Shown one piece after another: positions 2,171-51,819 of a stretch of 64,000 nucleotides of DNA. Position 1 is the stretch's first letter. Every line of letters begins with the position of its first letter. The DNA lies in assembly GCF_002234675.1 (NCBI RefSeq), contig NC_019866.2:11685261-11749260 (forward strand). Reading direction: 5' to 3'. Source of the stretch: Oryzias latipes (taxonomy: Eukaryota; Chordata; Actinopteri; Beloniformes; Adrianichthyidae). Made by a program: the position numbers and the translations under genes. A model generated the notes under the pieces. That model saw only the letters and a list, made by a program, of their open reading frames with translations, did not search any database and had not been told where the DNA came from.

Positions 2171-2176
2171 CTGGAT

Positions 2177-5808: not shown

Positions 5809-5962
5809 AAATAAAACCACAATAAAAAGCTTTATTACAATTTAAATCCATAAATTGATAACTTTTGGCTCCCCCTACTGGTCAATGACAGCATTTTTTT
5901 CTTAGGAATGTAATCCCCTTACCAAATAACTTTTGAGTGAATATATAAAAAGACTATACGAC

Positions 5963-17900: not shown

Positions 17901-19111
17901 GTCCTATAGTTGTATTTTATCTTTCTTTGACAGACATCTGAATTCCCAAAAGGGGCTGAGATGAGCCGCTTTGTGACACCAAACAAAAGACAGCAGCCTG
18001 TGGATCAATCTATAAGAGCCAAACATAAGTCAGAAGCTTGAACCAATAAAAACCAAAACTGACCTTTTCAAAGCTGTGCTTGCGAGATGGACATTTATTC
18101 AACCACAACATGACAGCTTCGAACACCATTTCCTCTTTAGGCACATTGAGAAGGTCACTGGAAATGATTTCTGTCAATTTATCCACACACAAAGATTGAA
18201 ACTCCTCCTGGAAAAAAATTAAAAAGTGTGTATAAGAAATATTAAACATTTTCTATGTCAGTGATGGAAATGAAGTGAAACAACAATTGATCTCTCTTGC
18301 CTGTTGACAAACGGTCGTGAAATGCTCCAGGATGTAGTCCATGCTCCGTTTCTCTAGCACCTTACAAGAATGGGCCTCGGCGAAGCAGTGAATCCCCACG
18401 CAGTTCATCTCATCCATCTGACGCTCCATGAAGCGACAACAGGCCTCTCGAACAGCCATCACGTCCAGCAGGTTGGCCGCTGCAAGCAGCGCCTGAACGC
18501 AGGCATATCCAGGATCAGCCATCGATGACGGACACATTAAAGGTGTGAGCGGATTTGATACCTGCACGTTGGCTTTGGAGATGTAGACCTCTGATGTGTA
18601 GGCATAGCTCACCAGCATGCCGATCATCTGTGGTTCTACACCATTGATGGCAACACGCTCCTGCTTAGACTCTATGAGATCAGCTGAGAACATGGCCTGC
18701 AGGGATTGGGTTGGAGAAATTGCAAATATTAATAGCGTGAGGTGGTGTGCATGGAAGGTTTTATGGGGGGGGGGGGGGATTTACTTGGAAGTAAGAGCTG
18801 AAAGAAGCCAGCACGATGCGATGGCAGGGGAACTCCTGCCCCCCACAGCACAGGGTCACGTCGCAGAAGGCGTTGTTCAGCCGCAGACTGTTGAGGCCCT
18901 GCAGGACTGTGTTGGGGTGCCTGGTCTCCACGAATAAGTAGTCCTCGCTGCTTTGAGATGCTGGAGGAGCCGCAGAGGCAGCGGTACCACCAGCAGTGGC
19001 AGCAGCAGCAGCAGCAGCAGTAGCGGCGCAGGCTTCCTCCTGGACCTGGAATATGGCGTTCATAGTGGAAGGCAGGAGAAAACCAGCGCCGACAGCGTTT
19101 ACTTCAGCCAT
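14925..19111 (-). CDS. BTB-BACK-Kelch protein, KLHL family, member not assigned
   Basis: Eleven coding exons: 18785-19111, 18562-18696, 18301-18492, 18064-18207, 16872-17058, 16498-16644, 16270-16398, 15745-15921, 15421-15567, 15173-15338 and 14925-15081. They give 635 residues. An Ala-rich N-terminus (about 28-55, from GCT/GCA repeats) precedes a BTB domain (about 75-185, FCDVTLCCGGQEFPCHRIVL), a BACK domain (about 190-300, CVGIHCFAEAHSC, KEEMVFEAVMLW) and six Kelch repeats (about 325-610, with GGEDD, AGGEFPDG, VGGWEGRSRLDSVECYNP and LGGEEGWDRYHDTIERY). Proteins of this build are substrate adaptors of CUL3 ubiquitin ligases. The RARPRRSTG linker is shared with KLHL6/24/35-like members. The start chosen is MAEVNAVG; a further in-frame ATG at 19147 lies before a likely acceptor and is probably not exonic. 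The intron at 18300 uses a GC donor. Confidence 0.9.
17187..17692. repeat. Dispersed repeat, copy A (Kelch intron)
   Basis: About 500 bp that aligns by eye with 19780-20287 in the same orientation. Shared stretches include the AACTACT-CCCGCT-like and GTAAGCTAGC segments, TTTTTGTTGCACC and the closing GGACTTTAAA. The family is unnamed here. The two copies are clearly diverged, so it is not a recent tandem duplication. Confidence 0.6.
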
Positions 19112-19530
19112 TTCTGACACTGCTGGGAATCCTACGAGGCGAAACAAAGCAGGACTCTGTCAGTAAACACAGTTGGGCTCTAGCTGGTTTATTCTAACGT
19201 GTGTAGCACGCAGTGGGAAAACTCCCCGAAAGTAAAACTCCAGCAAAACTTAAATGTGTAAAGAAAGTGAGTCGAGCGGTAACGAGGCAGTGAGCCGCCT
19301 AGTCTCCCAGTAATGAGGCTTAGCTAACACGCGAAAAAAATAACCATTCTGCCAGTTAAAGTAGACATTCAGCTCGAAGCAGAACAAATACTTACAGAAA
19401 GGTTCAAAGAAAGGGTTAAAAAATGGCCAAGGGTGCGTATTTTACCTGCAAAACATAGTCGTGACTGCTCCACAGCGGCCCCACATACAGTAAAAAACCG
19501 ATTTTCAGTCAGGACTTGAAAGCCTCTCAC
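19112..19530 (-). promoter_or_regulatory. Kelch gene 5' UTR exon and promoter region
   Basis: A likely acceptor lies just upstream of the coding exon (CTCGTAG, near 19132). A likely donor lies at about 19443 (TTTACC on the + strand), so a non-coding first exon probably spans about 19445-19530. The region is richer in GC and CpG than its flanks, as expected for a vertebrate promoter. The exact transcription start cannot be read from sequence alone. Confidence 0.4.
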
Positions 19531-23723: not shown

Positions 23724-26246
23724 TCATAGGCAGCTGTCCTTCATGATGCCAGGACTCTCGATTGCTTTTCTCCTGCGAGCCACAGCATCTAAGATCTTCT
23801 TCCTGGGCCCCAACTGAATGCGAATGCTTTTCAGGTCATCATCAGAGCAAAGCAGAAGTGCTTCCAAGTCCAGATGCTCTCGACTAAATGCAAGTGTGAA
23901 CTGTGGCAGGGAGAGGGCAGACAAGAACACTTCTAAAGGAGAGTTTTCCTTGTCTTCATCATCATCAAGTCCCAGATCGTCCTGATCCCAATTAAGGTCA
24001 TCGTCATCAACCTCCCCATCACCGCCGGCATTTTCCTCCCCCTCAAAGAGCTGATTCTGAACAAGGTAGCCGAGACTTTCGTTGTTCCCGCTGGGAAGGT
24101 CTTCCGCATCCATGTTCATCTTCTTCATGAAGATCAGACCTCCAAGACCAGGTCGGTTGAAAATGGATTGCTGGACTTTTCCTGATTCTTCCTCGCCGTC
24201 CTCATCAAACTGGTTTGTCATTTCCTCTTCTAACATATCTTCGTCCTGCTCGTTGAAGACTCCGAGAAATTCTGGCTTATCAGGTGCTCCATTGTCCTGT
24301 TTGCCGTAGATAACGTTCGGATCTCCTGGCCTCTGCAAAGTGCCTTTGTCTTTCATACCAAGCCTCTTCTGCAGTGTACCTTTGACCCTGGCTGTAACGG
24401 AGCCAGTTTTTTCTGCAGCAATCAGCTTGGAGAATTGCTCATTAACTCCAATCTTGTTTCCATCCGTAGATTCAGCTGATCCCATGCTTTCATTATCAAA
24501 ACTGCCTGATCCTCTGTTCATTTTGACCATCTTACTCTGATGCTTCTTCTTCACCTTTTCGCAGAGTTTTACTCGTCTCTCTGCTTCTTTCTGAGCCTCC
24601 TTCTTCAAGTTGGCAACCTTTCTCGAATTCTGATTGGTCTGCCTCGAAGCAGCGGCATCCAGAAATCGCACGATTTCCATGTGGCCATGAGACGCCGCCA
24701 CATCCATGGCTGTGTGGAAGTCATTATCCAGAGCGAAGAGGTTGGCGCCAAAGTTGACCAGGAAGCTTACGATGTGCATGTGGTTGTTTGATGCAGCATG
24801 ATGCAGCGGTGTGTTCCCCCAGATGTCACTTTTGTTGGGATCTCCTCTGTGTGACACAAAGGGAAAAGGAATTTTTAAATGTTTGAATGTTAATATTATT
24901 GATACTTTTAACAAAATGTCTTGCTTCACAAATGTTAATCGCAGTATAATTTAAATTATAAGTCTAAAGAAAAAAGTTGGATGCAGGCTGATGTCATTCT
25001 GATGCAAAATTTGTGTGGGTAAAAAAAAAGTTTAGAGCTAAGGGAAAAAAATTACAATCCAAACTGTTTTTTAGCATGTTTAGAGTCAACTTTCACTGCA
25101 AACACTCTCTTTTTCATTAAAGTTGTACATTTATAAAAAAGATTACTTCATTTTAAAGGTTCAGTTCACTGGGATTTTATGTTGACATATCTTGGTTAAG
25201 ACCATGGCAACCAGCACATGATTGTGGGTTGTTAACCTATAAAATAACTGCTCACAAAATCCACTCACAGCCCAGAGGCTCTGAGGCCGAACATATGTTT
25301 TCTTATAAAATCCATTCACAGCCCAGTTACTAATCATCTGCTCCACATTTCTAACTTGATTGTTAATGATATTCTCAGGTTTTATGGCAAGAAAGCACAA
25401 AAAATGAGATTTCTTCAAATTGTATAAACAAGAGAACACAAAGGAATAAAGGTCAAGCTAAATGGTAAACTATTAAGATTGGAAATCCTCCTGTGATTGA
25501 CCTTTTTGCCACAGCAATAAAAGTTTTGATTGCTGTATTCCAACCACGCCTTGTTATAAATTTTATCTCCTGCGGGTTACGACAAAAGCAGAAGTGTTTT
25601 CAGTTAATTTAGACATTAAAGACAAAGCAAGTTAAATGTATTAATTATGTTACAGACATTTTCTCTGATGCTCATGCTACATTTTAGCCAGATGGTGAGA
25701 GGCTTGAAGAGGGGGTGGTGAGGATAGATGAATGCCTCTTTTGTTTCACATCAAGGATGTGGCTGATTGAACATTTGGTTCAGCTCATGGGAGAGAATTG
25801 AGTTATTTGTTTTTTGTTCATAATGAGGCTGGGGGAAAAAAACAAAATTCATAACATGAGGAAATAAACCAGTCAAAATTTTTCTTTTTAACCTTTGGCC
25901 AAATATTTCTGTTTATTTCACCTGTGTATATATCTACTTGGTTCAGTTTTGAACAACAGAAGCCATCATATTTACAGTATTTTTTTCATGGTAAATTTTA
26001 CTCCCTCCTCAAATATATAATTTTTACAGATAAACAATGTGAAAAATGTAAATTTTCAGAGTAAAGTGACAGACAAATTCCTTACTCTCTGCTGCATATG
26101 AGCTGAAGAGCTTCGACGTGTCCGTGAAAAGCAGCCAGGAGGGTGGGGGTCATACCATCTTCATCTGCAGTGTTCAGGTCTTTCCTCGTGGCCTCCTTCA
26201 GTAGGTCCAAATAACCATCAGCCGCTGCTTTGTGGTACCTAGACAT
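23724..26246 (-). CDS. Ankyrin repeat and SAM domain-containing protein 4B (Harp)
   Basis: Two coding exons, 26086-26246 and 23724-24846, give 427 residues (human about 417). ANKS4B is a scaffold of the intermicrovillar adhesion complex at the tips of brush-border microvilli; in mammals it binds harmonin (USH1C) and MYO7B and links them to protocadherins. Three ankyrin repeats occupy about 1-125 ([56 protein letters not shown]). A basic region that may form a coiled coil follows (about 130-165), then a low-complexity acidic middle with the conserved [11 protein letters not shown] motif, and a C-terminal SAM domain (about 345-415, [29 protein letters not shown]). The last residues DSCL fit a class I PDZ-binding motif. 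The start is [11 protein letters not shown]. Confidence 0.95.
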
Positions 26247-27295: not shown

Positions 27296-30200
27296 ATGTC
27301 AAACAACGGCGGTTCGGCTGTCGGCCTTCTGTCCTACGAGACGTTGGTTCATGCGGTGGCAGGTGCGACGGTGAGAAGTCGAGACAGAAACGAAAGTCTA
27401 AAACCCGATTTATATGTACATGTACTTTCAGTCCAGATGATTCCCGTGTTTGGTGTGGGTTAGTTTTCACGCAGCCCTGTTTTACAGGGGAGTGTGACGG
27501 CCATGAGCGTGTTCTTTCCTCTGGACACGGCCAAAAGCAGATTGCAGGGTCAGTTATTGCTGGTTTTACTACATCTGATATTCTAGTTCATCATGAGGGT
27601 AGGCATTATTTAAGATGTAAATTTGTCCTTGTTTAAATCAACAGAAATGGTAAGACAATTATATTATAATCCCATTTGTCAGCTTATTTTTTTTAGTTTG
27701 GTATTTTATTATAATATATTATTGTTTTAGTATTAAACACTGGTATAAACATAACCTTTATTGCTTTTGTTTCCCATTTGAAAGCTAAATTAAGTGAAAG
27801 TCTAATACCAGTATAATTTTTTTTGCATAATATATCTCTTAAGCACAATTCCCAAGTTTATATTGAAGTATAATATTTTCCTTTAGTGGATGAGAAGCGG
27901 AGGTCTCGCTCCACCCCTGTCATTCTGGCTGAGATAGCAAAAGAAGAGGGCTTGTAAGTTTTGTTTTCTACCAGTACACCGCATTAAAACTTTTATAACT
28001 TTGTTTTTATAACTTAATGATTTCACTTTTTTTTTAATCCTTTAGCCTATCTCTGTACAGAGGCTGGTTTCCAGTCATTTCCAGCCTCTGCTGCTCCAAC
28101 TTTGTTTACTTCTACACCTTCAATGCACTGAAGAAGGTGGCGGCAGCTGGACCAGGCAAACCCAGACCAAGCAAAGACCTGCTGATGGGGGTTGTTGCTG
28201 GTAAGGCCGCATATAAATGAAACATCAAAAACCCTGACCTAAAGATGTATATGGGATCTTATAGTTCTTCTTGCTTAAAAAAAAGTTACAGTAAAGTTGT
28301 TGCCTTTTTTGTTTTCTAGTTGGTTCATTACAAGTTTAAACAAATAAAGAACTTCTTATGTTTGTTAGTAAAAGTTTTTGTATGGATTTAGTTGCACAGT
28401 CCTGTGACTAGAAGTGACAAATCTTTCATATATACTATACTATGTCTAACCAGGAGAATTACTAAAACTCCAATCTTGTTAAAAAGTGATAAACTTCTAC
28501 ACCAATTCTTATCAATGTAAAAGTTAATCCCGGACAAGCCCCCAATTGTTAAATTCTACAGATTGTAGAAAAAAAAAAACTAAAAGGTGCACAGTGCATA
28601 GTCAAAAGTTATGCAAAATAGATGCAAGGTTAATTTGACAAGTATCTATATTTAGAAACTAGTAGACTTTTCTTCAAAAGTGATCCATCAGCAGCAGCAA
28701 TCCTCAGACTTAGAGTAGTCTCCCAGCTGATATGGACTACATTGTCACTTTGTGACAATTTGGAGGGAAAAATCCTGCAGATCACAAACAAAAAGAACAC
28801 AGATGCACATAACATCCCATGACCCAAAGTTTGGAACAGTGTCGTCAAATAATGCTCTGTAATCCATCTTAAATGCCAAAATTACTTTTTCATTGCTGCC
28901 ATAAAATAAAAATGTGTTTTTCAGGGGTTGTGAACGTGCTCCTGACCACGCCCATGTGGGTGGTCAACACTCGTCTGAAACTGCAGGGGGTGAAATTCAG
29001 AGACGAGGATCTCCATCAGACTCATTACAGAGGCATATTCGGTTCGTGGTATTTCTTTGTGCAAAAAGATAAAATAAAAGGAGTCTACAATATGTGGATC
29101 ACTTTCACACCTCATTTAATCCTGATTTTTCTTGTCAGATGCTTTTTCACAGATCATTGCCAACGAAGGAGTAGGAACACTGTGGAACGGCACTCTGCCG
29201 TCTCTCATCCTCGTCCTCAACCCGGCTGTGCAGTTCATGTTTTATGAAGCCTTGAAGAGGAAAGCAGGAAAGGGAGGGAAGAAGGTGAGAGGACACAAGA
29301 AAAATGGAGGAGCAGAAAGCTTTTGGGGTTCATTTAAGCTCCACCTAACTAAGAGAACCAATTTCTATGGAGATCTGGAAAATTAGTTGACACTTAAGTC
29401 AAGAATTTAAAGATAACGCCGGGTAGTTGGAACTGATAAAAAAAAGTGTGAAAATTCTTTAACATTGGAACCTTAGCTCCAGTGTTTACATTCTTTCGTC
29501 TACCGCATCTTTTCACCAATCAACGCATTAAACAGAACTCCAACGGATGCTGCCGCAGAGAAAAGCGGCGCCGCAGCCGTCTGTCAGTAATGTGTTGCAC
29601 ATCGGTGCAAAGCCAGAAGGAAAAGTCGCTTTTCTCTGCACCAGAATCTGCTGATTTAAAGATTTCCGGTATGTCAAAAGAACCAGTGTCATTTAGGTGT
29701 TGCTGTGACATAATTGGTGTTAAAGGATTTACTATGGTGGCCCTAAAGTTCAAATCACATCAGCAATCACTGAATGCAAAAACACCAGAAAGATCACAAC
29801 AAGTAAAAGTACAGTTTTGATCCAGTTACCAGCTTAGACGAGGAAAACAAAAAGACATACTCAGAAATGCAGTTTAATCCTGAAATTCCTTTATACATCA
29901 TGCCACAATAACATGTTCAAACACCAAAAGTGTGAATTTCATTGGAGTTGGTCTTTAAACACCAATTTTTTCATTTAATTTATCATCATTGCAGAACTTT
30001 TGTAAGTTAATTTTTTTCAAGTCTGAATGCCGATATTGACAGCAAATGAAAAGGAAAGTGCAACCCTGTAAAAATAAAGTCTAGAGTCCTGAACTCAGTA
30101 TTGCAGTCATGTTCCAGGATTAATTTAAAAATAAAAACAGTTTTTTCTCTTCATTTAACCACAGATATCCTCAGCACAGATTTTTCTCATTGGAGCCATT

Positions 30201-31924: not shown

Positions 31925-34000
31925 TTAGTGATGTGATTCCTGATTTCCGCTCATCCCATCTATGAACCAGCGTGGCAGGAAGGAGTACTGGGAGTCCCTG
32001 TGCACAGAGTAGGTCACGTCTTTGTAGGGTTCCCAGGAAAACAAATACACCAGGCTGCAATGAAAGCATTTTGTTACAACCACAACATTTATTTGCTCTA
32101 AATATGTAAAAGCTGTGGCTCTTTTAAAGACCCTCTCCCAGCAGTCTTAATTATGAGAATGTGCTTTTATAACCCAAATCAAACAGCCTGTGACCTTTTC
32201 TAGGATGTATTTTCTGCAGTTCATCACAAATTTGCCTCTCATTTGTGGGTGGGACTGTTGGCACAGAACAACCCCGCCCCCCTTTACGGTGCCAAGAGCT
32301 TAGAGCAGGGAGCCTGTGGGTCGCCCAACATATTTTCTACCTCACAAACGAGCTCTTTTACAGCATTTTCTGTGGTCTACTGATTCACAATAACCTCAAT
32401 AAAGAAATACTCATAGCTAAATTGTCTTAATAACTGTCCTCCATCAGAAAAATGTCACAAGAACATGTTAAAAACACCAAAAACATTGTTTTATTGGCGT
32501 GGGTCTTTAAGCAACTCGCCTGTGGTCGTTTTCTGTGACGATCGCCTTTACAAAGGACAGGAAGTCGCAGCAAAAGTTCATGCAAACGGTGGGCCTCCAG
32601 CAGTTGTATTCATTCTGCAAAAGATAAAAAGAAGACTGTTTTCACAGATTCAATCCCTCTAACCATCAATTCTGAAACTCTACCTTGATGAGTTGGGACA
32701 CTTTAGAGACGAGGAAAGTCTCCGTGGAAACGACCACCCCGTCGTGATCCTTGAAACCTGCCACAATACGAGGAACTCCAGGTAGAAAAGACTGCGCCCA
32801 CCACTTGAGTAGTTTGAATCTGAATTTAGCCATTGAAAGGATAGTCATCAACGTTTGTTTGCAAACTTTACAGGCCAATGATGAGTCTCTCATTCACCTG
32901 TGGAAGTTGCTGCGCTGTTTTGGAGTACAGATCTCTGGAGAGGTCTTGAGCTCCACATAGCAGGCAGGAGGAGGAGGAGCGTTGGGATCTTTATCCCGAC
33001 AATCCACCTCCCCGGAGAACAGGAGTTTGTGATCTGCAAGTCGAGTCTGAACCACAGTGCAGAAGGCCTCGTTGGTGTTAACCACTCCACTGGGGTCAGG
33101 TAGGCTGTCGGCGTTATCTGAAGACAAAGTTTGAGTCTCATCGCTTAAGCATCCGTCAGTCTCCATGACAGTAAAAAGATTTAGCAAACCAAATAACATG
33201 GAAACTCCTACCTGCACAGGTGTACTGCTCAAACTTGTAGCCCCAGTACATCATCTCTTTGTTTCTTTCAGGACGCTTCTCCCGTTCAATGCGAGCGGCT
33301 TCCGTTTCCACTTCACTGATGTAAACAGTGCCGTTGAACTTGGTGGCTGCCAGCAGCCAGCCCTCCTTTGTCTCGTACGGTGTGGTCAGCAGCTTGGTCA
33401 GGTGGCCTCTCCATGTGACAAAGTCGACATCTAAAGCACTGGACGAAGCAGAAGTTGATTGAACAGGTAGACGTGCTGCTAAAGGTCAAAGGTTATTGTT
33501 CATCGGGAGCCAGACATAGAAGTAAGAGGGTAACCTCACCGTGGCGAGTCTGCAGTCCCTTTTGATTTAAGCGTCTCTTTGTTGGCTAAGATCCAGCGAA
33601 GAATATGGTCCAGCTTTTCTTTCACATTTTCATCTCTTCTTACGTAGCGGTCCTTGTAACCGTCTTTCAGGTCAAAATTGGGATTTTTGTCCGGTTCCAC
33701 ATAGTATCTCATTTGTCGTCCGTCATTAAAAAATCTGCGCTGAGAGTCGAGAGAGAAACATCCCACTTCCACCGGCTGTCTGTACAAAGGAAAGTCTCTC
33801 TCGTAGAGGTCCTTCCTGGTGCTCAAAGTCTGAGATCTTAGAGGGGTTTGCCCTGTTTTTACGTCTAACTGATCCCTGTGGTGAGTTAGGGGATCACCAT
33901 CAGAATGATTTCTTCTACCATGGCCTCTTTCTCGCCTGTATGCTGAATGATGATGGTTGTGGTATCTGGAGTTGGGACTGCGGGATCTGTGATGGTCCAT
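31925..34000 (-). CDS. dxo: Decapping and exoribonuclease protein DXO (DOM3Z)
   Basis: Six coding exons: 33540-34000, 33212-33438, 32898-33117, 32684-32819, 32520-32614 and 31925-32054. They give 422 residues (human 396). DXO removes incomplete or non-canonical (including NAD) caps from RNA 5' ends and degrades the body 5' to 3'. The N-terminus (1-50) is a His/Arg-rich low-complexity tail. Conserved parts are FPLYRQPVEVGCFSLDSQRR, NFDLKDGYKDRY, TWRGHLTKLLTTP, PDPSGVVNTNEAFC, FSGEVDCRD (metal-binding Glu and Asp), CYVELKTS (metal-binding Glu), KWWAQSFLPGVP and the C-terminal YLFSWEPYKDVTY. The last intron has a GC donor at 32518-32519 and is almost filled by a repeat. It lies head-to-head with STK19, as in the human MHC class III region. 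Confidence 0.95.
32124..32510. mobile_element. MITE-like repeat in the last DXO intron
   Basis: A 387-bp block with short inverted ends TTTTAAAGACCC and GGGTCTTTAA. It ends only eight bases inside the intron from the GC donor. The interior is GC-rich relative to the intron and has no coding capacity. The ends match the TTTAAAG-type repeats elsewhere in the window. Confidence 0.55.
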
Positions 34001-35444
34001 TCCTGTAGGTCAATGGAACGATGAGTCCAACCGCATGTAACAAAATCTCCTCTGGGATAAACTAAGAAAAAATGTATTTCTTTCTAGCTGTCATCAATGA
34101 GCTTTTATCTCATTTAAGGAAAAATAAAAAAAGTTTCTTCCAGCATCTACCCCAACTTAACTTATTTACTTTTTTCTATTATACCTCAAAATATTTGGTA
34201 GAAAAAGACTAAAGACGATTTTAAAAAGAACCTATTGAACTTTTATTCTCGTTGATTTTAAATAAGGACAAAAGGAGATCTCTTTTTTTGGCAGACCAAC
34301 AAGCACTGTGGAAAATATGCAACACCAAAAAAAAAAAAAAGAGAGACTAGACATTCAAACTGACAGTTTAAGTCTTTTTTCTTAGGCCGTTAACTAAAAA
34401 AGCAAGATTCATTGAAACTAAACATATAAACCAGAATCATTCAATTTCCTTAATGCTTTTATGCAAGTCTAATTCGATTACTGGTATATTATTATTCGAC
34501 GGCTTCCAGTTGTCACGTGAATTATTGTGGCCACGTATGTAAACAAAACAAAAAAGTGATATGCATTTTGTTTTAACCTTTGCTTGTGGATTTTAGAATT
34601 TTACTTTTCTTCAAAACTTCAGGTCATTTTGGGACAAATGCATACGTCAAAAGTGCATTTGTTGGGATTAAATGCACTAAGTTAATTTGTTGGAACTTGA
34701 TACATTTATTATAATGTACAGATTTACCTCTGATCGGATGTATTTTTGTTTACTTTAATATTCATATCCTATCGTAAAAGCAAAGCATAAAGCAATGAAA
34801 TGAACACATACCTGTAGATCAGCAAACACTTCAATATTAAAAAAAACAACAGTTGCGTCGTATTTACATGTTTTTCTAACGTCCACGAAAGCGACGTTGT
34901 GGAAAAAATGTATGCAAACGTTAGTAAACATGAGGCAGCTAAGCTAACCGGAACAAACGCTAACCAATACTGTGACGCACCTTCCGCGTGTAGTTCCACA
35001 TCCGGTCCGCTAGATGGCACTACTACATGAATCTTCCACTCCATCTTTAAAGAACAGTTTGGAGTAAAAAGTCGGTAAAATTGAATGAACGAACTGTTGT
35101 GCGTTGTTTGAGAGCAAGTCATGCGCAACTTAAGTCTTTCCCTTAACAGATAGGTACGTACGTATTTAATAAACACCTCAAACTTCCGAACAAGCTAACT
35201 CATGATATTAGCTTTGTTTACAAATACGTGTACGCAGTTGAACTTGAACCACAAATCGTTTGTCTATATTCAGAAAAAACATAAATGCAATATATTAGCA
35301 GCAAAACAGTAACTAACTATAAGTGTGTTGTGTGATAGTATGTTTTTGGTATGATGCCTTCCGTGTCTACTTTGAGTGAATGTGCTAGTTCAGCTAGCAA
35401 TAGTCGTCATGTCATGTTCACCCAAATACATTTGTGCCGCAGGT
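34001..35444. promoter_or_regulatory. Shared upstream region of DXO (-) and STK19 (+)
   Basis: About 1.4 kb between the two start codons. The 34960-35050 stretch, with several CpGs and CCGGTCCGCTAGATGGC-like sequence, is a plausible promoter core. AT-rich stretches and an A-run near 34328 lie on the DXO side. A 5' UTR exon for STK19 may end at an acceptor-like CCGCAG just before its start codon. Confidence 0.4.
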
Positions 35445-37025
35445 ATGAACAGGAAACGGGCTCTGGTTTCAGACACTTTCAAGGTGAAGAAAAGAAAAAC
35501 TGGAAGCGAAAAATTTGGAGTTGTGGATGATCATGGAGATGGTATGCTTATGGCTGTTAACGTTTTTATGTATATATTTTTTTAGATGCATAAGGAAAGC
35601 TAGTCACATCTGTTTTTTATTTTATTTTATTTTGAAGGACAAGGTGATATTAAATCCACCATTATGGACCTGATGACTCTGTTTCCTAGGAAACTCTTTA
35701 ATGATGCGGTACCTCAAATTGTGCTAAAGCACCAACTGTACAGCATACATGACAAAACAATGGTTGACAAGGAAGTGGTAAGAGGATTTCTTCAGCTTCT
35801 GGTATGTTCCAATTGTGTAACAATTAAGGGTGTCCTTCCTAAAAGTGACGCCTTGGAATCTGGACTTAAAGCCTTCTTTCTTGATGTCAATTAGCTATAA
35901 ATCATTTATAAAAGCCAAAGCAACTAAAGTGCTGTACAAGTAAGTAAAATAAAACATCTAAAGATAAAAACACTAAACAAAGGGGGAAAAAGTGACAGTA
36001 AAAGGTAGCAGACTGGTTAATTGGTTCTGGTTCACTACTGAGTCATCTTAGATGAAGTGATGAAACGTTTTTAAGTTCTGATAAGTCCAGATGCCATGAT
36101 TCAACTTCAAACCATCTCTGGCATGTTGTATGTTTGAACTATTTTTGTGCTTCTGCTTGCCCTCCTTGTTGCTCAGAATAAACTGCGCGAGTCCGGATCA
36201 CTGCTGATGTTCCAGCTTGGCTTTGATGCAGAAGCTTTTGGACTCGTTTTTGCGTCGGACTACAAGGCCAAAGTTCTGGCGGGAGAGGAGGGGAAAGCGA
36301 CCCGGGCGACGGTGGAGAAGTTCTTGGAGAAAGTAGTGTCCAAGTGCACAGATCTGAGCTTCAGCAAAGACAAAATGCTGAGGGAGTTTCTCTTCACAGA
36401 TTCGGAGATAACGTATGATTTCTCCTAAGCGCTCCAAGTTCAACGTTATGATTCCTTTCCCTATGTTTTAAAAGTCAATTCTTACTCTTTGTCATCACTC
36501 AGGCAGTTGGTGAAATCCGGAGTGTTGACTGTGAGGGATGCAGGCAGCTGGTGGCTGTCCATTCCCAACACTGGCAAATTCATCAAGTACTTTATACAAG
36601 GTTGGTGTCTGATGTGATTTTAACCAGCGTTTACTCCTTTAACATGTCTTGTGTCTCTCATTTGAGTGTTTTGGTATTACTAAAAAGTAACGGGACAACC
36701 TTTCATTAGGGCGTAAAGCAGTGCTCGGCATGGTGAAGAAGTCCAAGTATGGCGAAGTATTAAAAGATGACCTAGAACAACGAAGAACAACCTCTCATGT
36801 GAAGTTCCATATAAAATACCACATCAATGACATTGTTGGTGCAGAGCTGGTAGAAAGGTAACACTTCTTTACTTTTTTTGTTCATGCAGAGACTCCAAAG
36901 TCTGATTTTTAACGTTAAGTTAGTTTCTAATGTTTGATATTGCTCATTATATTCCTTTGTTTTTTTGTTTTTTTTCCAGTGTGCCTACAACTTCAGGGAC
37001 GTTGTTACGATATGTGGACTCGTGA
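35445..37025 (+). CDS. stk19: STK19, winged-helix nucleic-acid-binding protein (serine/threonine kinase 19 by name)
   Basis: Six coding exons: 35445-35541, 35638-35777, 36177-36412, 36503-36600, 36710-36857 and 36980-37025. They give 254 residues, equal to the short human isoform. Although named a kinase, the family consists of tandem winged-helix domains without kinase motifs, and it has recently been tied to transcription-coupled repair. Visible stretches are MNRKRALVSDTFKVKKRK (basic N-terminus), LMTLFPRKLFNDAVP, FQLGFDAEAFG, DSEITQLVKSGVLTVRDAG, SWWLSIPNTGKFIKYFIQGR and the C-terminal VPTTSGTLLRYVDS. An upstream in-frame ATG at 35409 would add 12 residues, but an acceptor-like CAG lies between, so MNRKR is preferred by comparison with the family. 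Confidence 0.94.
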
Positions 37026-38642
37026 GCTGTCTGAAGTCTCTCAGCTGAAGAGGACAAGTTTCGTTAAATTAAAAATGGCTGTAAATAGTTTGTTTTTTAA
37101 ATGGCTGAACTTTTCTTTTAAGTTGGTGCCAAATGATCAACTCCACTGAGGTGTTATGAGATGTAAATATTCACACAACTGTCTGCCTTTGTGTTTTGAT
37201 AAAAACTTTTTGTAATGTGAGATTTTACTAATGTGGGTCAGACCAGCTAGGAGGCAGGAAGGAGGCTCCGTAGATTAGACAAACAGCACAGGGCAGGTTA
37301 TGTAAGGTGTAAAAGTCTGGAGCCTTTAGAGCATTTTTTTTTTTTTTTTTTTTTTAAGTGTTGCAGGAGAGCTACGTTTTTGTCGGGTCTAATTAAAATA
37401 AGTTTGTGTAGAGTGCAGATGGGATTGTTTAGAAATCAGTGGTTATAAAATTAATGACAGTCCCTGAATGCAAATTCTTTTAAGAACAAAAACTGACTGA
37501 TGAAATCCTAAAAGCTTCATCAACCTTTTATGGTTTTAAACTAAAGCTCAATCAGCACCGACCAGGATAATCCAGTCGACCAAAAAAGACGTCAATGGAG
37601 TAATACATTGTGTTTTTACCCTAAATAACACATTTGTTCGTCAGGATGCTGCTTAACTTAACTCAGATTATTGGGAGTAACTTCAACCACCAAAGTGTCA
37701 GGTATTTTCTGACAAATTCACAACCTTAACTTTATATGTTGGTATGCATCCCAAATGATCCTACAGAAGAGATTTTACTACATGCGTGTCTAAAATTGTC
37801 TGCATTTTGCTAAAAATGTTTAATTTACCTGCAGCTTTTTCTACCTTACCAACAAAAGTTGCCAAGATGGCATTATTTACTCCAAAATGGAATTCACTCT
37901 GATCTGCACTTCTACATGAATTCTGTGGAACCAAAACAAAATAATCCTGTGGTTCCTATAGATCCTGCCGACTCATGTGCGAGAAGCCAAAATAAAGCTC
38001 AGTTCCGTTTGGTAATCTCGCTCCCCAACAAGTTAGATTCACTCGGCTACCGTGGCAACAAAGTCAGACATTCAGACTTCCACTTCAGGTTAAAAATGTA
38101 AACCTTCATTCATCTTTTGGGTTATACCTGCTGATTCTGAGCAGGGTTAAAGTGTTGGAGGAAGCCAACTGGCTACTGTCAGGTGAAAGTGGGGTACACA
38201 CACACACACACACACACACACACTCAGCTACCTGAGGGGCAATTTAGGATATTGTGTCTCAACCACCCATTCTAATAGAACATGGATTTAAACCAGCACC
38301 ATCTCACGGTTAGTTGAGAGTGCAAACCACTACACCTCCTTGTGCATTCCCTGCCATTTAACTTTTGTGAAAAAGCATCAAATACATTTTTTTCAAGCAA
38401 ATGTACCAAATATAGATTTTATTTATATACAAAGATCAACATCAAATTCATAGCTTTGTCTGTACAGTATGCAATGAAGGTTTCTATTAATAAAACTTTC
38501 ATTAAAACAGCTGTAATTACATTTATGGAAGGAAAGAATCTGAAGCACATTGTTTTTACATACTAGTGTGTTTCTCCTGTGAATGCAGCCGCGCTCCCCA
38601 CTAGGAGTCACATCCCCTCTAACTGCTGTGCTGCAGGACGTC
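37026..38642. other. STK19 3' region and spacer, with a CA microsatellite
   Basis: Non-coding, with a poly(T) run at about 37336-37357 and a CA dinucleotide run at 38196-38223. No exon was recognised. The last part (38447-38642) is the 3' UTR of the Rac paralogue on the minus strand, which resembles that of the second Rac gene. Confidence 0.5.
38196..38223. repeat. CA microsatellite
   Basis: Fourteen uninterrupted CA units. It is likely polymorphic in length. Confidence 0.9.
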
Positions 38643-39066
38643 TCAAAGGAGAGAACACTTCTTGCTCTTCTTCTTTGCAGGTGGGGGGCACAGGACGGCC
38701 CGAATAGCCTCATCGAAGACCGTTTTAAGGCCACGCTGAGTCAGGGCTGAGCATTCCAGGTACTTGACAGAACCTGAGGAAGAAAAAAAAGACAAGAGGA
38801 GCCTTTGAGTCCCCTAAAGAAAGTGGTTCTTTTCTGATCCCTTTTATTTCAACAAATTCATCCAAAACATGCAGGATGAGAAAACACTCCTACCGATCTC
38901 TTTGGCCATAGCTAGACCTTGGGGATAAGTGATGGGGGAGAGTTTCTTCTCCTTCAGCTTCTCCGTAGTTTCCTTGTCATCTCTTAGATCCAACTTGGTG
39001 CCCACCAGGATAATGGGAGTGTTGGGACAGTGGTGTCTCACCTCTGGGTACCACTACACAAAAACA
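38500..39066 (-). repeat. Gene-conversion block, copy 1
   Basis: 567 bp that aligns without gaps to 46611-47177 (offset 8111) with a single difference found by eye, in the 3' UTR. It covers the end of the 3' UTR, the last coding exon, the intron between the last two exons, the penultimate exon and 13 bases of the next intron. Outside the block the two genes diverge abruptly. Confidence 0.88.
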
Positions 39067-41591
39067 GCCATTTCAAGATGTACATAACTCTCTAAAACAT
39101 CCTACCTTGGTAAAAGTAAAAAAAATAAAAAAAATACTGCTTCTATTAACACAAATGAAATATGTTAAAATGAGTAATTTTGAAAATTGTATGACCTACA
39201 ACCTTGTAGCTGCAATCATCCAACTGTTGATTGCTGATCTTCCTCATTTGTTTATTGGATTTTTAATCAGAAAACTTTAAATAGAATTCCTTAGATTTAC
39301 CAGAAGCAGTTTCATGCATCAGGACTTCATACTAGTTTTAGCGTCAGACGTTTAGCTGTTTTATCACCATTTGGTTATTTTTGACCTCATCAAATGACTT
39401 ACAACTTTATTTAAACTGCTAACAGAAAATTCACAAAAGGCTTAAAGACACTTAAAAATAATTCAGAAAGAATTATTGATACAGTTGAGCTACACTGCAC
39501 GAAATTACCACAATGGCTTAAATGCATCCTTTCATGGAGTATCCCACTGCTGCTAAAAGCAGATGGTTTTCTTCATTACCTGAACAGGGACTACTCACCT
39601 TGGCAGAAACATTATGAAAAGAGGCAGGACAGACGAGCGAAAAGCAGACGAGGAACACATCCTGCTTAGACAAAGAGAACATGTAAACCTTTCTGAAAGA
39701 AATAAAGCTGATATATGCCCGTTCATATTTTCTTAAAACTGCTTTCCTTGATTTATCAGAAATATTTCAAATCAATCAATTTAGTTATCAACTGAACAAT
39801 CAATTGTCTGCTTGACTGTCATTGTACCGTTTCTGCGTGTGAGAGCGGGCGAAGTTTGTCATTATCGGGCCGTCCTCCTGTGTCCCAAAGGTGCAAAGAA
39901 ACCAGTCTACCATCCAGTACAACGTCAGCTAAGTACTCATCAAACCTGAGAAGAAATGAACAGTAAGGATTGATTAAAAAAAAATATAACAGTGTACACT
40001 TGAACACTTTTGTTTAGTTCACCAACTCTGGTTATAAAACTCCTAGAACTGAAATAAATAAAAAACACAAATCAGATATGAACTGTTAAATTAACCTTAT
40101 CATTTAAATATGAATTAACTGAGTAATTTAGCAGGGACATACAAATCCAAATAAATGAGTACAGTGTTTAGTCTTTTATAATAGTTGTAATTTTTTTAAG
40201 AGAAACTACCCATTTCGCTTTAGTATACCTCTGCTGTTTTTAACGCTTGTATTTAAAAACACTAAAAAAAACAGGGTTTACCAAAGTCCAGCAGTCAGTT
40301 CACAAAACTTGAAAAAGAAAAAACAGAACTAGCTGGTCAAAAACCTCTTAAGGATCAGGCTTTACTCACAACTTCCTGAAATACATTTCTCTGAGTTAAT
40401 GACAGTCTACAGCAGAGATTCATACCACTAACACACAAAGAAGCAAATAACCCACAATGTAAGCAGCTGAGGAATAAAAGATTGCAGTTTCAGATACTCA
40501 CACTGTAGGAATGCAGTGCTCAAGAAAGGAATTGGTGGTGTAGCTGTTGAGGAGACAGGTCTTACCTACACAACTGAGAAGGAAAAGGGGTTGTTCGGTG
40601 TTTGGAGAGGAAAAAAAAAACCCATCACAAGCTTGTTACGTCAGATATGAAACAAGTAGGATCCCAATAGGAAATGTCACTGGACAAATACCAAAAAGTT
40701 TTGAATGGTGTTGTAGACCATTTTAAAGAAACAAACTTTGATAATCTGCTGGTGTTCCAGCACTGCTTCATAGAGAGTATTCCATGTTTCCCAACCCTGG
40801 TACTGGAAGCACATTGTCCTGCATGTTTTTGATGCTACGCTATTCAAATGCACAGGATTTAGCTCATTGTTGACTTTTGTAAAGACTTTGCAGTGGCACT
40901 CATCAAAGGCAGCTGCGATTAAGCAGGAGAAGCTAGAAAACACACAGGAGAGTGTGCCCCAAGAATAAAAGGTTGGGAAGCACTGTTCTAACATACTGTG
41001 TAAACCACAGAAACAGGTGCAAACAGGAGAGAACTCCAGAGTCACCATCACAGTCCTGTGTGGTCTCCAACCCTGTTCTTGCTGAACTACTGCCCTGCTC
41101 GTTTTCGGGTGAACCCTGCTTCAGTAATTACTGGTCACCTGGATCCGGTGTTTTCAGCCAATCAGAAACTGGGTTCACTTAATGCACCTCATCAGAAATT
41201 AAACAGCGGGGTTCGCTGCATTCGGCAAAACAAGCAGGGCAGTAGTTCACTAGAAACAGGGAGGGTAAAGAAGACAACCAGCTGCCCTGTCAGCTTTTTA
41301 AAAGAATTTTAACAGTTCTCAAACATTTCTATAGGAATTCATCCCAATTCAAACATTCAATATTTGTACTATTTTTTAATAGTTTTTTTTATCTGTGTAC
41401 TATGAATTTCCTGTATCGTTTTTGCCAACAAAAATATGGCCGTTTGAAACACAACTTTAGCTAATAATGTTAACTTACCTGTCACCGACGGTGACACACT
41501 TTATGGTCTGTAATTCGCAGCGGCTAAGCCTTTTGTTTGAAGTCTTCGAAGTAAGAGTACCACGTCTAGTTTCTGTTTGTATATGAGCCAT
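38643..41591 (-). CDS. Atypical Rac-family GTPase, predicted GTPase-deficient
   Basis: Six coding exons (41479-41591, 40502-40573, 39828-39945, 39599-39661, 38894-39053, 38643-38773) encode 218 residues with GT-AG introns at the same positions as in the neighbouring canonical Rac. Relative to Rac numbering, the P-loop reads GDSCVGKT (Ser at 12, Cys at 13). Switch I lacks Tyr32 ([12 protein letters not shown]). Switch II reads [14 protein letters not shown], with Gly59, Arg61, Pro62 and Asn64 in place of Ala, Gln, Glu and Tyr. Thr35, Lys16, the TKLD base-binding motif and the SAL motif are kept, so nucleotide binding should persist. Positions 12, 59 and 61 are those whose change impairs GTP hydrolysis in Ras and Rac. 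A 26-residue extension ([16 protein letters not shown]...) precedes the Rac start. The C-terminus, [10 protein letters not shown], keeps the polybasic and CaaX prenylation signals. Membrane-bound, GTP-locked signalling is an inference. Confidence 0.88.
40690..40990. repeat. Probable interspersed repeat in first-half introns of the Rac paralogue
   Basis: Contains TTTCCCAACCCTGGTACTGG and, at its right side, GGTTGGGAAGCACTGTTCTAAC. Both resemble ends of common fish hAT-derived short elements. No target duplication could be fixed, so boundaries are approximate. Confidence 0.35.
41083..41249. repeat. Fold-back element with 24-bp inverted arms
   Basis: TGAACTACTGCCCTGCTCGT at the left and its near-perfect complement at 41226-41249 form arms of about 24 bp around a loop of about 120 bp. 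It lies in the first intron of the atypical Rac gene. It may be a short inverted-repeat transposon or a cruciform-prone sequence. Confidence 0.6.
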
Positions 41592-42994
41592 TTGACCGAT
41601 AATGCTAAGCTAGCCAACAGCGGGAAACGTCACTTTCTTCGTCCACAACTTTTCGCCTATAAAACAGTATAGTAGCCGCCTGCTAACAGCTTTTCGAGCA
41701 ACACAAACACATATGGAGGGGAAAAACTGTACAGTAACACAATTCAGACTTACCTCGCAACATTCCTAAGCGCTTCCTTAGAAGTTATGTTCAGGGCATA
41801 CCGGGGATGGCAATCACCCACTCTCCGAGATAAAGCTTCAAAGTGGCCGCTTGACTTCAAGATGCTGCGATTGGTGTTGCAAGGGTCACGTGATAAATGA
41901 CGTTGACTTCTTGTCATGGTCCGAATCAACAAATCAGTAAATGCAAAGGCTAAAAGGTTATTACTAAAAATAGTTCTGTTTTCAATTTTATCTTTGGCCT
42001 TGTAAGTACACTGAAAAAATGTGGGACAAATTAACAAATAAAAACTAAAATTTACACACTTTTTACTTTAACACGGAAAAAAACATCTTATTTGGTTTAA
42101 TTAATTATGATAATACACTTTCATCTTAATTTTATTTAATAAATCTCCCAATTTTACTAACCAAGTATTATATTCTATTAACTAAATTTAGCAATAAAGT
42201 TCCTAATTTTTTTTAATTTATCAGCCCAGATTTGACTTACGTTCCATTTCCCCCAGGACAAACACAATATCAATGAAAACATGCCATTTTGCTCAGCTCT
42301 ATAATTTAATTTAAATCAAGTTTGTTTTTGTGTATTTATTCCCCTGGTGTTTACTTTGGATGTACAGTTGTTCCTGTGTGAAAAAAATGGGCCAAACCAG
42401 GAAGTCCCGGGAGCAAATCACGTGACTACTTCAAAACAGGCAGCACTGCTTTATGCTTTATTTTTACTTTTTGAGATGCTGAGATTCAGGCCTTTCAACT
42501 CTTTTTTTAAACATCGCACAATCCACTCATGATTTGAACACAGTGGGAAAATCCCCAATAACTGGCCTTTAAATGAGTCCTTTAGTTTAATGAAGAAAAA
42601 AAATGCTACTTGCTATTTATTAATGTTTTACTTTAAGAATAAGTGCTCTTGGGCGATGTACAGATGGGGCAAGAGCACGAAAATGCTGCACATGCCAGTG
42701 TCACGCCCAAACTGGTAGTGGTGTGTCCAGAATATTTTACCAGGATGGCAAAGATGGTTCATACCGACGAAGTGGGGTGATTACAATGTACCAAACTTTA
42801 GTTAATATAAAATATGTCAAAAAAGTGTTAATCATAAAGGTTAAATAAACATTTCCATGACTTACACTTTAAATTAAGCTTATGTGACAAGTTTGTAAGT
42901 AGAAAGCCAAAGTCTTTCAGATCTGTGTCATTTGTATTACTAGCAAGAAAAAAATGTAAAGAAAATAATTTACATGTATAAAAATTCTGTTTTA
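41592..42994. other. Upstream region of the atypical Rac gene
   Basis: The first 200 bases are relatively GC-rich and include a CGCAACATTCCTAAGCGCTTCC stretch (41757-41778) that resembles GGCAACATTCCCATGCTTTCG upstream of the canonical Rac gene, so part of the promoter may be shared by descent. The rest is AT-rich with no recognised exon. Confidence 0.45.
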
Positions 42995-44865
42995 CAGTTT
43001 TTCTCCATTGGTTTGGCTCTTTTCTTGAAACAGAATTTACATTCTCAAAACAACATGGACAAATCTCCAAACCCCTTGGCAGTTGTTCACAGAATGGCAT
43101 TTCTCATTAGTTTCATCAAATTGCAAATGTCTTCGTACATGTCTCAATGTACAGTACATCTTTGCAAGTGATTAAGTACAGGTAGCCTTCATTTGGCACA
43201 ATTTCCAAGTGAATAGATCTTGTTGATCTAAACTGATTGTTGATTCTCAGTCTAATGGTTGTTCGCTCCAAAATGAGTCAGCATCATTTCATTGTGTCAG
43301 TCATCACATGCACAATTGTCAAAATTAGTCAAGAAAATAATACCATGAATACGATATATGAATCCCTTGGAACATTTGATAAATTTATTACAGCAATTGA
43401 CAATCAGGTGAAACTAGAACTTGACTAACTAAGGAGGATGTCCCAGGCCAGCGAGGGGGCAATATAACTATGTGTGCTGCCATATCTGAGAATGGTGTAG
43501 CCACTCACATCCCCAGTCTTGGCCCATACAATACACAGAAGCTCCTCATTTTCTTGGACCGCCTTCGTTTTGATTTGATCCCTGAAAATGAGAGAGATCT
43601 CGTAGGGCCTCACCTACCACTATATGTTATTGTATGGGACAATGTGAACTTCCACCATGGCCCGCTCATCAGGGCCTGGTTCACCACTCATCCAAGGATG
43701 GTCATAGTGTTCCTACCACCTTACTCTCCTTTCCTCAATCCTATTGAGGAGTTTTTCTCCGCTTGGAGGTGGAGAGTGTATGAGCATCGGGCTCAAGATC
43801 AGAGGTCCCTGCTCCATGCAATGGATGTTGCGTGTGAGGATATTACAGGAGGTCAGTGTAGGGGATGGTTGCGACATGCACGCCGTTTTTCCCTTGTTGC
43901 ATTGCAAGGGAGAATATACGCTGTGATGTGGACAAAAATCTGTGGCCAGACAGACAGCAGCGTGAGGATGGCCAGCAGGGTGAGGACGATGACCAGGAGG
44001 AGGGTGAGGACAGCGACCAGTGAAAAACTTTTAGTTGTGAAACTCAAGCATTATTTACAGCACTGTAGGCTACATATAATTTTCATTGTTTTTTGTTTGT
44101 GTTTGTTTATAAAGTATATTATGCTGTATACATTTTCTTTTTACTCTGATGTATGACAGTTACTTTATGTGTGTGAATGATAATGGTTAGAATTTACTTG
44201 GCAGTATGAGCGCAATGTGTGCTGTTAAACCTAAGAAGCAGCTCTTACCCTAAAATCCCTTTTCTTTTTTTCAGTTTTAAATAAAAATTGTATTCGGTTA
44301 GCTATACAAAAACAGTACAGTTACCATTGTCAATAAAGGACTGAGCTAAGACTCAAAGGTGGACATGAGGGTTATTTCAATGATCCTCTGCTACACTGTA
44401 GTGACAAAACATCTAATCATTTGACTTGCAGTGCCTTCACAATGCCAAAGGGACAAAGTATTTTGGAGGCACTGACTTTTAAATGAGAAGGAAAGTTAGT
44501 TTTGACACATGAGTGAATTGTTTTGGGAGAGATATGAGCTTTGGCAGGTGAACCATGGCGTTGTGCTAAACCATCCACATTATTTTGACAAAAGCACCAA
44601 GAGTGTTGAGAACGTCCAGTCTGATCAAGAAATGAGCCATATGCAAATTGAGAAGGATCTTCGCCATTTTGGTGGCACTGACTCTTGACATGGGAAAGGA
44701 ATTTAGTTTTGAAGCATGATTTAACAGTTTTGGGAGATATATTAGATTTTGCAAGTGAGCTATTGTGTTGTGCTAAACTTTAAGACTGTTTTCCCAAATG
44801 ATCTTAGAGTTTTCAGAATGTAATTTCTGTTTTAAGAAATGAGCCAAACCAATGGAGAAAAACTG
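42995..44865. mobile_element. Tc1/IS630-type DNA transposon, internally deleted
   Basis: The inverted ends are CAGTTTTTCTCCATTGGTTT, continuing GGCTC, and the complementary right end (near 44840-44865). Both ends are flanked by TA (42993-42994 and 44866-44867), the target used by this superfamily. The length is 1871 bp. The interior holds the C-terminal part of a transposase (43427-44023). Near the right end a segment is repeated twice in direct orientation (about 44480-44590 and 44670-44780), with shared TTTTGGGAGA and GCTAAAC motifs. The element lies between the two Rac genes. Confidence 0.85.
43427..44023 (+). pseudogene. Transposase C-terminal part, IS630/Tc1-like DDE
   Basis: The frame opens after a stop at 43424-43426 and reads EDVPGQRGGNITMCAAISEN, then VIVWDNVNFHHG (second catalytic Asp), then FLPPYSPFLNPIEEFFSAWR with the third acidic residue. 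There are 35 or 36 residues between the Asp of WDN and the Glu of PIEE. The N-terminal DNA-binding part and the first catalytic Asp are missing. Near 43915 a frameshift separates this frame from the natural acidic C-terminus (CDVDKNLWPDRQQRED...), which ends at TGA 44021-44023. The copy cannot be autonomous. Confidence 0.8.
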
Positions 44866-44867
44866 TA

Positions 44868-46610
44868 AAAGCCTATAAGAGATTAGTTGTCTTGAATGAC
44901 AAAAAGTATGTTTCTAATTCCAAACTCATAATTTTTAGATATTTTAACAACAAATATCGTAGCATCACTAATATTGATGCGAACACTTACCAGAACGTGG
45001 TAAAAAAAATGACATTTTACCTGATTTACTATCAAAGGTCGACACGTCAAACATTTTTGTCTCTTAAGGCTTATAGTAAACATAAATCACACCACTGTTA
45101 TGACTCGTATGTTCATTTGTTACCAATAGAATCAGTTTAATTCAGCTCCATCATCTACATAATCTGATTTTAGCAATTTATTAGAAAATGATGGACTAAA
45201 ATATATTTAAAAAAATTTTGAGTGCCTATTGTGGGGTTTTCTTTCATAACCATTTTTTGTGTGTATTTATGAGGTAAACAGTAAAACAAATTTGACAGCC
45301 AATACAAATGAGCCATAAACTGTACCAATTTAACTATTTTTGTCATTTAGTAAAAATTAGGATTAAACAATCAGACGAGTGGAGAAAAAATGTTTTATTT
45401 ACTTTATTGGCTTCTTCAAAAAGTGACAATAGCTTTTTTATTGCATAAAACTAAAACGTCACAACATTGGCTTGAATAACAGCACAGTTTGATATCTGGC
45501 TACAATACCGATGAGCAACATGTACTTTACCCCTGATCTAGTAGTTCAAATACATTTTGTAAATAGGCAAAAAATATATAACTAGCAGTTCTAAATTTAG
45601 TTTTCAGTATATGATGCACAGGCATGCTAGAGCATTAATTACAAAAAGCTAGGCTCTTAGGAAGATTAAGGTAGCGTTAAATGTAGAAGTAAAAAAAAAA
45701 AGATATTCATAGTGTTAGTGAAATGGTACAGTGAGGATGTGTAACGTCTGAAGAAAGATACAAGAATCAAATCAAGATTATAACAAAAAGATGAGTACAC
45801 TCTTTACTACACCGAACTGACAGTAACTTATTTACCTTTATTGGCAGACATAAATGCTCTTCTTTGTGACATTGCTTAGCCAGTAGTGATGCTTACAAAA
45901 AAATCAATGTGCTGCAAAACGAAATTGATAAATGCCCTTAAGAGTGTTAAATGTGCTCTTACTCCCCCGTTACAACACATCTGAACATTTCTGTTCTGAT
46001 TTTGAATAAAGTCATTAATCACCTTAACAGCTGAAAAATCTCAGGAGGGCCTACAGGAGGGAATACTTTTGGTACGTCCAATTGATTGATAGCAGTAAAT
46101 ACTGGAATTAATTGCACCTTCAAAAATATACTCAAATGCTCAGAACGTTACAGGCATCTTTTCTTTTTTGGATTGAACAGATACAGGTATTAGGATTAAA
46201 GTGTTTGGAGGATAATCTGAGGCGAGAAGATGGTTATTTATCTTTGTTTACAGTGGGACGACATAACTGCTTTCACAGAGTAAAGTTGTGACACAAACAC
46301 GCCATTAATCGAAGAGCAGGTCGATCCTTAACTGACAATAAATCGGCTGTTCTCCTTTTTTTCTTTGTTTGAAATACAGTGTGTGCAGAATGTATTTGGC
46401 AACATTTCTTCCACTTAAAACAAAGATTGTAAACGATAAAGGTGGATAACCGGTGGGAGAATATAATGAAGACATTCTACTGTTTTTTACAAAACATCCA
46501 ATCTGTTTAGAAGGCCTCAAGAAATTCATAGCTTTGTCTGTACAGTATACAATTATCAAGGGTTCTCTGAAGTCCAAACCCCTCTCCTACATCTAGGTTG
46601 ATTTTTTTTT
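44868..46610. other. AT-rich spacer between transposon and canonical Rac 3' UTR
   Basis: No exon or delimited repeat was recognised. The part nearest 46526-46610 is the 3' UTR of the canonical Rac gene. It contains a short stretch of about 85 bp that is not shared with the paralogue, flanked by shared sequence. Confidence 0.4.
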
Positions 46611-46753
46611 CATTAAAACAGCTGTAATTACACTTATGGAAGGAAAGAATCTGAAGCACATTGTTTTTACATACTAGTGTGTTTCTCCTGTGAATGCAGC
46701 CGCGCTCCCCACTAGGAGTCACATCCCCTCTAACTGCTGTGCTGCAGGACGTC

Positions 46754-51819
<5,066 letters not shown>

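Follow-up and report, generated by a model that had tools for sequence, protein, structure and literature searches.

An atypical tandem copy of Rac in Oryzias latipes, predicted to be GTP-loaded, with a C-terminal half best explained by gene conversion with its canonical neighbor

The window considered in this study, meaning the whole stretch of 64,000 nucleotides that was analyzed (C8:11685261-11749260), contains two Rac genes in tandem. I will refer to the canonical copy as C8b and to the atypical copy as C8a. My reading of C8a, to which I give a probability of roughly 0.55 from what its sequence offers, is that it is a retained, fast-evolving Rac duplicate, whose product would be GTP-loaded and outside the control of GAP, GEF and GDI, similar in this respect to RhoH and the Rnd proteins but derived from Rac.

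The gene model of C8a is as follows.

41591..38643, minus strand: C8a, whole gene, six exons joined in frame (657 nt, 218 codons plus stop)
41479..41591, minus strand: exon 1, coding for a 26-residue N-terminal extension and Rac residues 1-11 and ending two bases into codon 12
41511..41513, minus strand: position of the ancestral Rac start codon, here TTA (M1L)
40502..40573, minus strand: exon 2, completing Ser12 and followed by Cys13, GKT, Leu29 and Thr35
39828..39945, minus strand: exon 3, with Gly59, Arg61, Pro62 and Asn64
39599..39661, minus strand: exon 4
38894..39053, minus strand: exon 5, without difference from C8b
38643..38773, minus strand: exon 6, with the polybasic tail, CSLL and stop, without difference from C8b

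The initial annotation had described six in-frame exons with canonical splice sites and a product of 218 residues, and the rebuilt gene bears this out, with a GT donor and an AG acceptor at all five introns. The intron positions and phases of Rac, expressed as a 35-nt Rac part of exon 1 followed by exons of 72, 118, 63, 160 and 131 nt, fit splice sites in C8a and in four other modelled Rac genes; these lengths were imposed in the scan of Rac genes, but the borders of C8a had first been read without them. The marks of a pseudogene were not found in C8a: all five introns are GT-AG, the frame contains no stop, and exons 1-4 have no indel relative to C8b. The predicted start in this model is an ATG 26 codons upstream of the position of Rac Met1, the first ATG past an in-frame stop (ORF 41475-41609). 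The extension of 26 residues that results is basic, and the stretch encoding it can be aligned, though weakly, to the sequence 5' of C8b.

The protein's top match among solved structures is Rac1 (chain 5fi0_B; 344.3 bits, E 2e-102), which rules out a chance open reading frame. Among the best 60 of 164 matches, the scores are 344 bits for Rac1, 336 for Rac3, 325 for Rac2 and 250 for Cdc42, and all 60 carry the name of Rac or Cdc42/G25K, none that of RhoH or Rnd. The names of the listed matches, together with the tandem Rac neighbor, set C8a apart from RhoH and Rnd, and its nearest sequence relatives and canonical tandem sister place it in the Rac subfamily, in keeping with the earlier claim that it arose from a Rac.

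The sister gene is likewise encoded on the minus strand.

46754..49829, minus strand: C8b, canonical Rac, complete, 192 aa, in tandem with C8a
49829-49795, 48677-48606, 48125-48008, 47793-47731, 47164-47005 and 46884-46754, minus strand: exons of C8b

It was encountered in searches of the organism's own genome (734,051,031 bases in 25 contigs), where exons 5-6 of C8a found a second matching exon pair 8.1 kb away that is part of C8b. The 96 residues encoded by exons 1-4 of C8b recur unchanged in two other Rac genes (C19a and C19b), and a fourth gene (C1) agrees with C8b at 94 of them. Since this protein sequence is common to C8b, C19a and C19b, the amino acid changes that separate C8a from C8b fell, by parsimony, on the C8a branch. 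Among the 54 matches listed in a search by exon for other copies of C8a exons 1-4, four are the exons of C8a itself, one belongs to C8b, and each of the remaining 49 has at most 67% identity.

The surroundings of the two genes are mixed. Between C8a and C8b lies a frame resembling a DDE_3 transposase (43425-44156, plus strand; Pfam E 1.1e-14). A nuclease frame of the RAI1/DXO type (Pfam E 1.5e-17) adjoins another frame (33536-34009, minus strand, and 36138-36428, plus strand), which I take to be STK19-like, although it had no Pfam match at E 0.001. In the human genome DXO and STK19 are neighbors within MHC class III; at this locus such a pair adjoins Rac. A frame with ankyrin and SAM domains (23724-24950, minus strand) presumably resembles ANKS4B or USH1G, and at 18253-19159 (minus strand) and 28873-29247 (plus strand), BTB/BACK frames and a mitochondrial-carrier frame mark ordinary neighbor genes. 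Farther off are an open frame of 1007 residues (2171-5194, plus strand), which by eye has the look of a LINE endonuclease and reverse transcriptase, and a set of repeats, some direct and some inverted, 192-299 bp long and with 95-98% identity (5961-7592).

C8a differs from C8b at 32 of the 96 residues encoded by exons 1-4. The changes are M1L, A3T, V8T, G12S, A13C, I21N, A27S, P29L, G30E, E31H and Y32C within residues 1-32; N39E, S41L, N43D, M45V, V46L, K49R, P50L, N52S and G54H within residues 39-54; and A59G, Q61R, E62P, Y64N, R66K, Y72H, P73A, Q74E, I80V, S86C, E91H and R94S within residues 59-94. The initial annotation had named Ser12, Cys13, Gly59, Arg61, Pro62 and Asn64, all of which are present (as G12S, A13C, A59G, Q61R, E62P and Y64N relative to C8b), and had noted that Thr35 is kept, as the alignment with C8b confirms. 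Beyond that list, C8a also carries P29L, G30E, E31H, Y32C, N39E and R66K. If GTPase-deficient proteins are recognized by substitution of Gly12, Ala59 and/or Gln61, then C8a would belong with them on all three counts (G12S, A59G, Q61R), and with Gly12 and Gln61 both absent, a normal cycle stimulated by RhoGAP would not be expected. None of nine positions that I take to contact nucleotide or Mg (G10, G15, K16, T17, C18, F28, T35, D57 and G60) has changed. In the effector loop, V36, F37, D38 and Y40 are kept, and Y32, N39, S41 and N43 are changed.

Several of the substituted positions are known to activate Rac proteins when changed in published assays, which lends support to the initial interpretation. 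In a study of human RAC3, all 11 variants tested are termed active, to a variable extent; hydrolysis is strongly suppressed by Q61L, G60D and G12R and moderately to weakly by A59G, which leaves exchange unchanged, and P29L speeds exchange with hydrolysis unchanged (PMC9473360). P29L in Rac2 is termed transforming in another report (PMC5003542). In a study of Rac1, R66A and Q61L show little or no binding to RhoGDI and G12V, P29S and Y64F about half, and activity is not raised by Y64F (0.8-fold) or R66A (1.1-fold) (PMC8274835). No measurement of G12S, Q61R, E62P, Y64N or R66K in Rac was found in the parts of the published texts examined. Six of the nine RAC3 variant positions that fall in exons 1-4 are changed in C8a, two of them (P29L and A59G) to the same residue, but the enrichment is not significant (6/9 versus 25/86 other positions; Fisher p = 0.055, post hoc), and G60 stands in both this list and that of nucleotide and Mg contacts.

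The same substitutions lend themselves to a different reading, that C8a acts as a dominant-negative or pseudo-GTPase, filling places at membranes, in the prenylation machinery, or on regulators or effectors while giving no GTP-dependent signal. Uncoupling from effectors could follow from the substitutions Y32C, N39E, S41L and N43D in the effector loop together with E62P and Y64N in switch II, the tail is that of the canonical Rac, and GTPase-deficient RhoH is described as an antagonist of Rac1 (PMC2565660). The listed nucleotide and Mg contacts are intact, however, and several of the changes lie at positions where published changes activate (PMC9473360). I regard this reading as improbable.

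The second half of the gene has a history different from that of the first. The two copies share a block with sharp borders.

38497..39066, minus strand: presumed gene-conversion tract in C8a, identical at 569/570 positions to 46608-47177
46608..47177, minus strand: partner of the tract in C8b

The tract covers exons 5 and 6 and the whole of intron 5 (120/120 bp identical), together with the last 13 bp of intron 4 and 146 bp of 3' flank, and its sole mismatch is at 38522. Outside it, at a threshold of E 0.01, introns 1-3 of the two genes yield no match and intron 4 has a single 21-bp match besides the 13 bp within the tract. The DNA of exons 1-4 is 72% identical, with dN 0.226 and a dS of 0.98 that marks a divergence long ago. 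Gene conversion is common among tandem copies, and since a young block lies within an old duplicate, the shared exons 5-6 are best explained by recent conversion. That the locus arose by tandem duplication followed by a recent exchange of exons 5-6 seems to me highly probable. One might suppose instead that the 570-bp block was doubled by misassembly or by a mixture of haplotypes, and that the real C8a has other exons 5-6, as the sharp borders and the 569/570 identity would allow. The two blocks have different flanks, however, each lies within its own gene in the right order and phase, and conversion offers a commonplace route to the same pattern, so I consider such an artifact very improbable. 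Because conversion best accounts for exons 5-6, neither the CAAX tail nor the G4 and G5 motifs, intact as they are, count as evidence of selection or function. A more general caution follows: conversion with a neighbor can make half a gene look perfectly conserved, and integrity is then a poor guide to function.

The question of function thus turns to exons 1-4, for which the initial annotation had proposed a dN/dS check. A branch codon model gives an omega of 0.30 on C8a versus 0.0035 elsewhere, about 85 times the background, with branch lengths that are rough because synonymous sites among the other Rac genes are near saturation. The likelihood ratio statistic for the C8a branch is 5.94 against neutrality and 45.1 against equal omega; setting omega on this branch to 0.7 costs 1.7 units of lnL, and setting it to 1.0 costs 3.0. 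In all nine combinations of three topologies with three codon-frequency models, omega lies between 0.28 and 0.31 and the statistic against neutrality between 5.9 and 10.3. Three of 160 neutral simulations reached a statistic of at least 5.94 with omega below 1. Exons 1-4 of C8a are, then, strongly relaxed yet probably non-neutral, and only moderately distinguishable from neutral. The lack of stop codons was considered as proof of selection and rejected as weak, the probability of a stop-free frame in exons 1-4 under neutrality being 0.11 at 76 substitutions (0.27 at 40 and 0.03 at 150).

The main rival explanation is met here: that C8a is a dying duplicate, its function recently lost or its expression gone, with a frame still open and a C-terminal half tidied by conversion alone, in which case the loss of catalytic residues would reflect lost constraint and no new role. 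An omega about 85 times the background is what such decay might produce, as is the disappearance of the ancestral start codon; the identity of exons 5-6 is accounted for by conversion, and the chance of 0.11 just given is not small. Omega being an average over time, a value of 0.30 is compatible with recent decay after long function. What lowers this explanation are the branch dN/dS, the stop simulation and the splice check. Omega stays near 0.3 in 9/9 settings, with null simulations as extreme in only 3/160; exons 1-4 have accumulated no indel although introns 1-3 have diverged past alignment; GT and AG persist in 5/5 introns; and the listed nucleotide contacts remain unchanged (0/9). I judge decay to be somewhat unlikely. 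The earlier statement that C8a is not a decayed copy therefore stands in part. The absence of stops and of indels in exons 1-4 and a dN/dS below 1 speak for it, but the integrity of exons 5-6 is most likely the work of conversion, and the constraint on exons 1-4, relaxed some 85-fold, is only moderately distinguishable from neutral.

If C8a is indeed a retained and GTP-loaded Rac, the following picture emerges. A duplicate that arose long ago in tandem with a canonical Rac was retained and went on coding for protein; its switch half (exons 1-4) changed quickly, and its exon 5-6 half was probably homogenized with C8b by recent gene conversion. The protein would bind GTP and hydrolyze it poorly (G12S, A59G, Q61R), with nucleotide exchange perhaps sped up by P29L and with poor docking to GAP, DH-type GEF and RhoGDI predicted from E62P, Y64N and R66K. 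Its tail (10 protein letters, not shown) would place it at the membrane. Such a constitutively loaded Rac would be controlled by its own expression, and because the effector loop is partly preserved (V36, F37, D38, Y40) and partly altered (Y32, N39, S41, N43), it may act on only some Rac effectors, or vie with canonical Rac for them. The 32 changes together could also leave C8a misfolded or unable to bind nucleotide.

It is possible, and I offer it tentatively at somewhat less than even odds, that this is a fish lineage with a permanently GTP-loaded germline Rac, in which activating changes are stacked and conversion from a neighboring Rac renews the membrane-targeting half. If so, GTPase deficiency would have arisen once more among Rho proteins, independently and this time from a Rac. 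Changes of the kinds stacked in C8a are linked, singly, to cancer or brain malformation when they occur in human Rac genes. Single activating changes in human RAC3 lead to a neurodevelopmental disorder (PMC9473360), so a vertebrate that keeps C8a must restrain it, through expression, choice of effectors or weakened output. The gene would then let one test directly how an organism tolerates a Rac that is constitutively loaded, and by what path cycling Rho proteins give rise to GTPase-deficient ones. No Rac of this type is described in the titles and beginnings of abstracts of the open-licence literature that was searched.

With canonical Rac1, Rac2 and Rac3, C8a has in common the layout and phases of its exons, the motifs that bind nucleotide, exons 5-6 and the polybasic CAAX tail; it differs from them in its catalytic and regulator-docking changes (among 32/96 residues of the N-terminal half that differ from its sister), in its N-terminal extension of 26 residues and in its shifted start codon. 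Rnd1-3 have the constitutive GTP loading without GAP control that is predicted for C8a. Rnd proteins also have an N-terminal extension, as does the model of C8a, but Rnd1-3 belong to another subfamily with another tail, that of C8a being the polybasic CSLL of the Rac type. RhoE (Rnd3), like C8a, has Ser12, and so does RhoH, which has also lost Gln61 (Asn61 in RhoH, Arg61 in C8a) and is reported to be GTPase-deficient, as C8a is predicted to be; according to the same text, RhoH stands apart as a Rho protein of its own that carries an ITAM-like motif, in contrast to C8a, an offshoot of Rac with Arg61 and Gly59 (PMC2565660). Gain-of-function human RAC3 shares P29L and A59G with C8a and is also hit at 12, 61, 62 and 64 (PMC9473360). 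Gain-of-function RAC3 and Rac2, however, are single mutations in patients or tumors, whereas C8a combines such changes in the reference sequence of a gene.
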